From an uncultured Bacteroidota bacterium (lineage in GTDB: Bacteria > Bacteroidota > Bacteroidia > B-17B0 > Aurantibacillaceae), in NCBI GenBank assembly GCA_937873155.1, contig CALMVZ010000010.1:372001-436000 (forward strand): a DNA stretch of 64,000 nucleotides, in the 5' to 3' direction. Under the pieces are notes generated by a model. That model saw nothing but the letters and a program-made list of their open reading frames with translations. It ran no database searches and was not told where the DNA came from. Positions 8,147-8,613 of this stretch are shown piece by piece. Every line of letters starts with the position of its first letter. Within the stretch, counting starts at the first letter, position 1. The position numbers and the translations under genes are program-made.

Positions 8147-8208
8147 TTATAAAAATAGTCAATTTCGCTTATGCGGAGAAGCTATTTGGAATAGTATGAA
8201 AAACAAAA

Positions 8209-8229
8209 AAGCCCCGATTGGGGCTTTTT
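8209..8229. terminator. Terminator between the sensor gene and tRNA-Arg
   Basis: The hairpin AAGCCCC-GATT-GGGGCTT (8209-8226) has a T-run on the plus strand and, read on the minus strand, ends in TTTTTTG, so it can stop transcription of the minus-strand tRNA, whose 3' end is two bases away. Confidence 0.85.
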
Positions 8230-8230
8230 G

Positions 8231-8304
8231 TGGTACCGTAGGGAGTCGAACCCCAAACCTTCTCATCCGTAGTGAGATGCTCTATCCAGTTGAGCTACGG
8301 AACC
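8231..8304 (-). tRNA. tRNA-Arg (anticodon ACG)
   Basis: The 74-nt gene folds as a full cloverleaf: acceptor GGTTCCG/CGGTACC with one T-T mismatch at the fourth pair, D stem GCTC/GAGC, anticodon stem TCTCA/TGAGA with loop CTACGGA, T arm TGGGG-TTCGACT-CCCTA, and discriminator A. The anticodon ACG (wobble position expected to be inosine) reads CGN arginine codons. CCA is not encoded. The first ten bases of the tRNA overlap the end of the GIY-YIG gene, whose TAG stop is made of tRNA positions 8-10. A second, interrupted copy of its first 21 bases lies at 8552-8591. Confidence 0.93.
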
Positions 8305-8543
8305 AATATTTTTCTTAAATAATCTCTTCCTTGTCCTGTTTTTAAAAACTTCTCTCTATTTCTTGCTTCAGCTAATGTAGCAAACTCCTCTTTATGAACT
8401 AACTTCCAAGGTAAATATCCTTTTGTCGATCTATTTTGTCCTTTATTGTGTTCAAGAAGTCTTCGATCTAGGTTATTTGTAAAACCTTTATATAACCTAC
8501 CATCTTTTTCACTTTTTAAAACATATACAAAGAACTTATTCAT
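8295..8543 (-). CDS. GIY-YIG nuclease-domain protein inserted at the tRNA-Arg gene
   Basis: The 82-residue product is a stand-alone GIY-YIG domain: VYVLKS (GIY position), then LYKGFTNNLDRRLLEHN with the YxG variant YKG and the conserved Arg, then AEARNREKFLKTG with the catalytic-type Glu. Such single-domain proteins are related to the nuclease domain of UvrC and to homing endonucleases; their function in Bacteroidota is unknown. I use the ATG at 8541-8543; an upstream ATG at 8597 would translate the tRNA-like copy. The stop codon lies inside the downstream tRNA. Flanked by the partial tRNA copy upstream and the full tRNA downstream, the gene has the appearance of an insert that restored the tRNA 5' end. 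Confidence 0.9.
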   Translation of the reverse strand: MNKFFVYVLKSEKDGRLYKGFTNNLDRRLLEHNKGQNRSTKGYLPWKLVHKEEFATLAEARNREKFLKTGQGRDYLRKILVP

Positions 8544-8551
8544 TTCAAGTA

Positions 8552-8591
8552 ATCCAGTTGAGCCCTGCCTGCTGCAGGCGGGTACGGAACC
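8552..8591 (-). repeat. Partial duplicate of the tRNA-Arg 5' end, split by a palindrome
   Basis: Read on the minus strand this is GGTTCCGTA, then a 19-nt palindromic insert CCCGCCTGCAGCAGGCAGG, then GCTCAACTGGAT. The 9 + 12 bases match positions 1-21 of the tRNA-Arg gene (8284-8304) exactly. The insert forms an 8-bp stem with a 3-nt loop and resembles short palindromes scattered in many Bacteroidota genomes. It lies between the likely promoter and the GIY-YIG start. Confidence 0.9.
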
Positions 8592-8605
8592 GTTCAAATA
8601 GGGCG

Positions 8606-8613
8606 CAAATATA
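8606..8613 (-). promoter_or_regulatory. Promoter -7 box for the tRNA-like copy/GIY-YIG/tRNA-Arg unit
   Basis: The minus strand reads TATATTTG, a perfect TAnnTTTG match, 15 bases before the first base of the tRNA-like copy. It is the only such box I see upstream of tRNA-Arg, which suggests that the GIY-YIG gene and tRNA share a transcript. Confidence 0.6.

Follow-up and report, generated by a model that had tools for sequence, protein, structure and literature searches.

The locus described here appears to be a small mobile unit that rebuilds the tRNA genes into which it inserts, is mobilised by the GIY-YIG nuclease that it encodes and has nuclease-free derivatives mobilised in trans; we estimate the probability of this reading at roughly two in three. 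It lies in the window, a stretch of 64,000 nucleotides from the genome of an uncultured Bacteroidota bacterium (G000), and it belongs, judging from sequence comparisons, to a large family that also rebuilds tRNA 3' ends and exists without a nuclease. From these comparisons we conclude that the units move and rebuild their targets, and the single-domain nuclease is most likely what mobilises them. An earlier note on the window had offered a tRNA-targeting mobile element as one possibility, which is now supported by empty sites in relatives and by presence/absence differences between two sister genomes, G006 and G007.

On the minus strand, that note had read a -7 box, bases 1-21 of a tRNA-Arg split by a palindrome, a GIY-YIG gene and a complete tRNA-Arg, an order borne out by our re-reading of the sequence, by ARAGORN and Rfam and by the match to PF01541 (Table 1). 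The box, an instance of TAnnTTTG, which we take to be the Bacteroidota -7 consensus, sits 14 nt ahead of the broken tRNA copy. The 19-nt palindrome splitting this copy is present, although it is imperfect rather than perfect, with 8 pairs, 1 mismatch and a 1-nt loop. The nuclease was said to stop within the tRNA at positions 8-10, and its TAG codon occupies exactly those bases. That the stop codon marks the palindrome site as a general rule was an idea that we dropped: it holds in the window and fails in several other 5' units. The unit has one ORF, and neither an integrase nor a Y1 transposase was found in it, its sole annotated domain being GIY-YIG.

Table 1. Features of the window locus and nuclease-carrying units at other tRNA genes of the same genome.
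Locus	Feature	Position in window	Strand	Basis
Window	-7 box TATATTTG, native tRNA promoter	8606..8613	-	read from sequence
Window	displaced copy, tRNA-Arg bases 1-9, GGTTCCGTA	8583..8591	-	read from sequence
Window	19-nt near-palindrome CCCGCCTGCAGCAGGCAGG, taken as unit end	8564..8582	-	sequence and related palindromes
Window	displaced copy, tRNA-Arg bases 10-21, GCTCAACTGGAT	8552..8563	-	read from sequence
Window	single-domain GIY-YIG nuclease gene, 82 aa	8295..8543	-	ORF and PF01541 match
Window	intact, rebuilt tRNA-Arg(acg)	8230..8304	-	ARAGORN; Rfam 60.2 bits
Window	terminator-like hairpin of tRNA-Arg, GGGGCTTTTT / AAAAAGCCCC	8206..8229	-	read from sequence
L012	tRNA-Leu; 5' copy broken by TCCCGATAGCTATCGGGA			
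L004	tRNA-Ser; intact tRNA, then GIY-YIG gene, then 3' copy broken by TCCCCACAGAATTGTGGGGA			
L007/L008	tRNA-Met; two tandem units 356 bp apart, CCCTTCCC..GGAAGGG			

Two relatives, G006 and G012, provide the empty site that the earlier note had proposed to look for: the orthologous GDPD gene is followed by the TATATTTG box and, 12-15 nt further on, by an uninterrupted tRNA-Arg without insert. As the same box stands ahead of the broken copy in the window, the unit must have inserted into the tRNA itself, with the old 5' end and the old promoter staying behind, in agreement with what had been surmised both for the rebuilt end and for the promoter that stays with the displaced one. Entry into the tRNA is thereby upheld. 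By analogy with the clean inserts of the sister genomes, each of which can be read as one insertion at the palindrome, the palindrome site (base 9/10) is a more plausible entry point in the window than base 21. The window tRNA-Arg is identical over 75 nt to that of the G006 empty site, which led us to reject, for this locus, a recoding of the rebuilt tRNA that would protect it from cutting; identity to the window's tRNA-Arg is also 100% in G007, and it is 96% in G012.

In other relatives this locus is occupied. That of G002 holds the window's unit (86% protein identity), and its tRNA has a further GIY unit, of the 3' type. In G007, tRNA-Arg(acg) has a 70-nt nuclease-free insert made up of ten bases of the tRNA, one of them changed, followed by a double hairpin, six further tRNA bases, a linker and the intact tRNA. 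The GIY units of G002 and G000 are related, and the G007 hairpin is unrelated to them.

The window ORF matches PF01541 with an E-value of 4.3e-13 (49.8 bits, cut-off 22.6). Residues Y7, Y18, G20, R28 and E64 are invariant in all 15 aligned members, and we take the two Tyr, the Arg and the Glu to be the GIY-YIG catalytic residues. The solved structures nearest to the family profile are those of UPF0213 (1zg2, 1ywl; BH0048, E 2.3e-16) and SLX1 (best 1e-7). Between the window gene and its G002 orthologue, the one pair compared, dN is 0.083 and dS 0.492, which indicates purifying selection on this gene. A tree of 224 nuclease proteins, 123 of them labelled tips, has 45 isotype changes (shuffled mean 89, minimum 80 in 500 shuffles) and 21 changes between 5' and 3' types (shuffled 31, minimum 22). 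Nuclease lineages thus tend, by this measure, to keep one tRNA, yet they can switch end and isotype. At E 1e-3, none of three family proteins had a PHROGs match. Two unannotated Staphylococcus phage records, OR849895.1 and OR845007.1 (H1 and H2), contain a protein weakly related to the window nuclease (38.8% identity). As for the GIY-YIG subfamily marked by PYCVY(V/I)LFS.., with proteins of about 100 aa, its genes at L005, L063, L069, L072 and L079 have no tRNA within 1 kb, L072 being located at a contig end.

The genome of the window, 4.85 Mb in 39 contigs, has 14 GIY-YIG matches. The earlier note had asked whether its other tRNA genes share the structure, and five GIY-YIG genes at four tRNA loci, the window's included, follow the same plan with different tRNAs and four different palindromes. 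There are two mirror-image types of unit, one of which rebuilds the tRNA 5' end and the other the 3' end. The 5' units at Ala, Gly and Phe of this genome have TCCCGATAGCTATCGGGA within the D-loop, and a profile search of those loci found no GIY gene. At L004, the acceptor strand of the displaced tRNA-Ser 3' end reads AGTCTCC, a mismatch to CCTCACC in the intact tRNA, as if part of the unit derived from another tRNA-Ser.

Relatives of the window protein were found in 47 of 60 related genomes (E <= 0.001), and a 15-member profile had matches in 186 of the 296 genomes sampled from the phylum (E <= 1e-12), several of the matches coming from single-contig genomes and several forming tandem arrays. 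A scan of named genomes yielded 17 loci, of which L160 is the G002 locus. A same-strand tRNA lies within 120 bp at 11 of the 16 others, which include MAGs labelled Acidobacteria, Planctomycetota, Doudnabacteria, Woesebacteria, Peribacteraceae, Parcubacteria and Patescibacteria, labels that may be wrong. Our census set comprised 262 distinct GIY genes, the pattern-hit loci L015-L024 and L115-L129 being excluded; its loci are mostly best-scoring matches, so that the sample favours the window nuclease's subfamily. For 132 of these genes a tRNA is present within 120 bp, upstream in 95 and downstream in 37 and always on the gene's own strand; none of the 262 has a tRNA on the opposite strand within that distance, and 130 have no tRNA there at all. 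One tRNA-adjacent gene was dropped because of short flanks, leaving 131 to be scored for a partial copy. The 131 unscored genes consist of 66 array members, 14 genes with a tRNA fragment or a farther tRNA, nine at contig ends and 42 others, many of which belong to other branches of the nuclease tree.

The earlier note had suggested a search of related genomes for GIY-YIG genes beside tRNA 5' halves. Of the scored genes, which cover 18 isotypes, 115 of 131 are flanked, on the side away from the intact tRNA, by a partial copy of that tRNA (81 of 3' type and 34 of 5' type). With a shuffled tRNA the count is 0/131 and with the tRNA of another isotype 6/131, so that the split-copy plan is more than chance. 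An indel interrupts 108 of the 115 copies; seven have none, among them L167, L193 and L048. A palindrome of at least seven pairs is found in 75 of the 108 indel-bearing copies (shuffled mean 8.9, maximum 12 in 20 rounds). We relied on this threshold since that of at least five pairs, reached by 102/108, has a high chance rate (shuffled mean 41.9). A partial copy beyond the intact tRNA, with no GIY gene between, was present in 40 of 129 cases, a count that includes both nuclease-free units and neighbouring tRNAs. Among the 34 5'-type units, a -7 box occurs within 45 nt before the broken copy in ten and before the intact tRNA in one. In the 81 3'-type units, a hairpin with a T-run is found between tRNA and nuclease in 57 and within 60 nt after the displaced copy in 48.

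Seven inserts are present in G007 and absent from G006, each leaving an intact tRNA: 126 nt at tRNA-Phe (aligned flanks 692/694 identical), 47 nt with a single hairpin at tRNA-Thr (683/693), 351 nt with a GIY gene at tRNA-His (523/541; two nearby stretches, of 53 and 101 nt, are present only in G006), 99 nt at tRNA-fMet (277/287), the 70 nt described above at tRNA-Arg-acg (301/309), 100 nt on the 5' side of tRNA-Met (595/620; the 3' side differs too) and 95 nt at tRNA-Arg-tct (561/589; farther flanks diverge). A single insertion at the palindrome site could account for each of them, the inserted DNA closing with a tRNA copy that runs from there to the tRNA end; the insertion points are inside the tRNA genes, for example GG^TTCGA and GTAG^CTCA. 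The nuclease-free inserts of G007, at 47-126 nt, have no room for a gene. In the Phe unit, the tRNA sequence next to the hairpin is a short piece that departs from the local tRNA. At tRNA-Arg-ccg of G007 there is a 5' unit as well as a tandem row of three 3' units, all three nuclease-free (flanks 632/692). The pairs at Val, Leu-taa, Cys, Asp and the second Met (L312/L324) show more than one insert difference and were excluded as clean cases. Counted by eye, units occur at 12 of the 32 tRNA loci of G007; census matches from the Ala/Ile and Gly/Thr clusters, which are ordinary neighbouring tRNAs, were set aside by eye.

Some further features of these loci may be mentioned. The 399-nt insert of L324 in G007 also holds a GIY gene. 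The linkers before the rebuilt tRNA in L087 and in the G007 5' inserts at Arg-ccg, Met, fMet and L324 contain GTTCTTT, which we take to resemble the boxA antitermination leader, as if the unit restored the tRNA leader too. Upstream of the tRNA-Val of L087 (about 321-551 of the oriented region) are three tandem nuclease-free units 87 bp apart, and upstream of the tRNA-Asp of L045 two, likewise 87 bp apart; each consists of a 5' tRNA copy, a hairpin and an A-rich linker.

One double hairpin, TCGCGAG..CTCGCGATGGCGAG..CTCGCCA, occurs 12 times in G007, once each in G006 and G001, and in neither G000 nor G002. Ten of the 12 G007 hairpins lie in partial copies beside the intact tRNAs of eight genes, namely Arg-ccg (three times), Phe, His, Arg-tct, Asp, Arg-acg, Met and fMet, and nine of these ten belong to units without a nuclease gene. 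The intact fMet and Met tRNAs also have, on their other side, a GIY unit with another palindrome. The G006 double hairpin and its G007 counterpart are located 189 bp past tRNA-Arg-tct, outside any tRNA copy, and that of G001 has no tRNA near. Such a distribution makes it very improbable that the units are ancestral and the empty sites products of precise deletion between direct repeats. With repeats on either side of the insert, precise loss could in principle occur, and at some single sites loss in G006 instead of gain in G007 may have taken place. However, this explanation fits poorly with a hairpin found at eight tRNA genes of G007, absent from G000 and G002 and represented in G006 outside tRNA copies, or with a tRNA-Arg site that holds related units in G002 and G000 and an unrelated hairpin in G007.

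Palindromes are not confined to tRNA genes. Those of the form TCCCG-N-CGGGA occur at 91 sites in G000, compared with 28 for the reversed control, and many of the dispersed ones are TCCCGATAGCTATCGGGA, also away from tRNAs (e.g. L115, L022). Some of them seem, by eye, to lie inside other repeats, and palindromes of this form are also found at L075 of G006. As for the window palindrome, we ruled out that it is a high-copy repeat of G000: its 16-nt core occurs once in the genome at 0-1 mismatches, and at eight further places with 2 mismatches. Its kin, CCTGCCTGC..GCAGGCAGG or CCCGCCTGC..GCAGGCAGG, are found in 5' units of L026, L029, L032, L132 and L161. The GIY genes of L012, a 5' type at Leu, and the second gene of L026, a 3' type at Arg, are divergent (48% identical) and have an identical palindrome. 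Palindrome class changes five times over 89 tips of the nuclease tree (shuffled mean 16.7, minimum 12 in 1000 shuffles). We nevertheless set aside the idea that it follows nuclease lineage after a pairwise check: similar palindromes are found in 49/85 same-isotype and 3/86 different-isotype pairs of close nucleases, and in 1/87 and 60/1615 pairs of far ones. This check leaves nuclease and isotype effects inseparable, and exact palindrome similarity, as far as these comparisons indicate, follows neither alone.

It is unlikely, in our view, that the palindromes are independent REP-like mobile repeats entering tRNA genes, with the GIY-YIG gene as a passenger or a separate homing gene at the same spots and the tRNA saved by local duplication or unequal sister-chromosome exchange. 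The prevalence of nuclease-free double hairpins in G007 and the dispersal of TCCCGATAGCTATCGGGA outside tRNAs in G000 would suit this explanation, as would the linker of the G007 Met 5' unit, which resembles the native leader, and the G007 His unit, in which some nucleotides of the native flank are repeated past the tRNA end. What would not be expected of a passenger is a gene that has the intact tRNA on one side and the partial copy on the other in 115 of 131 cases, that invariably reads in the same direction as the tRNA and that appears to be under purifying selection in the orthologue pair compared.

Genomic islands and phages that integrate by means of tyrosine recombinases also enter tRNA genes, restore them and leave a partial copy behind, which is the same single-crossover topology; in contrast, the units measured here span tens to a few hundred bp, and the short ones are too small to leave room for a recombinase. 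In REP/RAYT systems (REPINs), a Y1 tyrosine transposase spreads short palindromes, and non-autonomous copies outnumber the enzyme gene. The likeness lies in both these traits, whereas the units described here have a GIY-YIG nuclease instead of a Y1 transposase and insert into tRNA genes with rebuilding. UPF0213 and SLX1, structure-specific nucleases, are the nearest by sequence among solved structures, but the matched SLX1 chains are longer (183-324 residues), and the UPF0213/SLX1 entries imply no mobile or tRNA context.

By analogy, the nearest counterparts of the tRNA-rebuilding units appear to be the mORFs of fungal mitochondria and SegB of phage T6. The mORFs occur in Glomus atp6, atp9, cox2 and nad3 and in Allomyces atp6, bring a replacement gene end and displace the native one, the hybrid genes being expressed (PMC3630166). 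A mobile nuclease ORF between a rebuilt gene and a displaced native end is what they have in common with our units. Unlike mORFs, the units target tRNA genes in bacterial chromosomes, can rebuild either end, encode in the window a nuclease with a single domain of 82 aa, usually have a palindrome at the displaced end and also exist without a nuclease. Moreover, the rebuilt end is not foreign or diverged in the window, L004 being a diverged case. SegB, a free-standing GIY-YIG homing endonuclease, is described as cutting within tRNA genes at the motif RAWTSGAAC and driving tandem amplification of tRNA genes, and the 3' end of segB as sharing microhomology with a tRNA 5' end (PMC13096335). In our own reading, the reverse complement of the motif resembles the tRNA T-arm. 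The two systems resemble each other in a GIY-YIG nuclease beside tRNA genes, with tRNA-gene cutting and tandem amplification as SegB's features, and the microhomology parallels the window nuclease, which ends inside the rebuilt tRNA. Inserts inside tRNA genes would fit SegB-like cutting, without proving it. In contrast to SegB, the units reside in bacterial chromosomes, their profile is nearest to UPF0213/SLX1, and three of three members are without a PHROGs match; no tRNA rebuilding is described for SegB in the available part of its source (PMC13096335).

In the mechanism that we propose for the mobile unit, one end would be the palindrome and the other a tRNA copy extending from the insertion point to the tRNA's own end: the 5' end in the 5' type, as in the window, and the 3' end, often with its own terminator, in the 3' type. 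After insertion, one tRNA would be intact and the displaced old end, marked by the palindrome, would lie on the far side; tRNA genes are essential. Movement would begin when the nuclease encoded by full units cuts the target tRNA gene or the palindrome, possibly as a cruciform, and repair of the break via tRNA homology would complete it. The product would have the topology of a circle integrated by a single crossover, the circle bearing a partial tRNA interrupted by a hairpin and the crossover falling on the side that does not face the nuclease gene. The palindrome might be cut as a branched structure, as SLX1 relatives suggest, or the tRNA gene might be cut in a SegB-like manner. The former fits better because the rebuilt tRNA is identical to the empty target, so that a nuclease simply cutting the tRNA should still cut it. 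As an intact target would always be recreated, repeated insertion or unequal exchange could build tandem arrays. Hairpin units of 47-126 nt without a nuclease would be non-autonomous derivatives moved in trans. Since most tRNA-associated double hairpins of G007 are in such units, the link between nuclease and movement is indirect.

Strict homing in the style of fungal mORFs, in which only unoccupied alleles of the nuclease's own isotype would be cut, gene conversion would operate between strains and the palindrome would be a later decoration of a useless displaced copy, strikes us as quite unlikely. It draws on the tendency of nuclease lineages to stay with one isotype and on a unit anatomy that resembles that of mORFs (PMC3630166). 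However, resistant alleles are a misfit with a rebuilt tRNA identical to the empty target; palindromes of at least seven pairs are already present in most indel-bearing displaced copies, clean single inserts contain both palindrome and copy, and one hairpin family occupies eight tRNA genes of one genome. The mobile-unit reading has its own difficulties: the far-side copies without a GIY gene between, TCCCGATAGCTATCGGGA outside tRNAs and the seven indel-free copies count against it, as do the displaced acceptor strand of L004, which a simple insertion leaves unexplained, the mismatched piece in the Phe unit of G007 and the changed base at Arg-acg.

It is also conceivable, if highly improbable, that the nuclease benefits the host, being regulated by tRNA transcription or processing, or that the tRNA-like copies are decoys against tRNA-targeting defence or toxins. 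The position of the window nuclease between the old promoter and the tRNA might be understood in this way, as might the hairpin and T-run that separate tRNA and nuclease in most 3'-type units, and SegB-driven tRNA amplification is described as helping phage T6 to evade Septu (PMC13096335). Against this, the units differ in presence and absence between sister genomes and are spread over many isotypes, the displaced copies are without one acceptor strand, and nuclease-free units exist. Nor does any observation at these loci require the other possibility raised in the earlier note, a nuclease mRNA matured through tRNA processing.

Among the matches listed in the open-licence PMC literature, we found no paper on bacterial chromosomal tRNA-rebuilding GIY-YIG units. 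We tentatively propose, at not quite even odds, that they form a class of their own among the mobile DNAs of bacteria, namely units of ~50-450 bp with a palindrome at the end that would insert at tRNA arm boundaries and rebuild the tRNA from either side, with an SLX1/UPF0213-like GIY-YIG nuclease acting on the hairpin and nuclease-free derivatives spreading in trans across isotypes, in Bacteroidota and several other phyla. With more than 100 comparable arrangements next to tRNA genes of other bacteria, the locus points to mobile DNA of a kind that is little known. If our reading is true, a one-domain nuclease and a short palindrome would make up a very small mobile element that widely reshapes tRNA genes and their flanks, many small GIY-YIG genes beside tRNAs would be accounted for, and structure-specific nucleases would be linked, in a way open to test, with dispersed palindromes and with the tandem amplification of tRNA loci.
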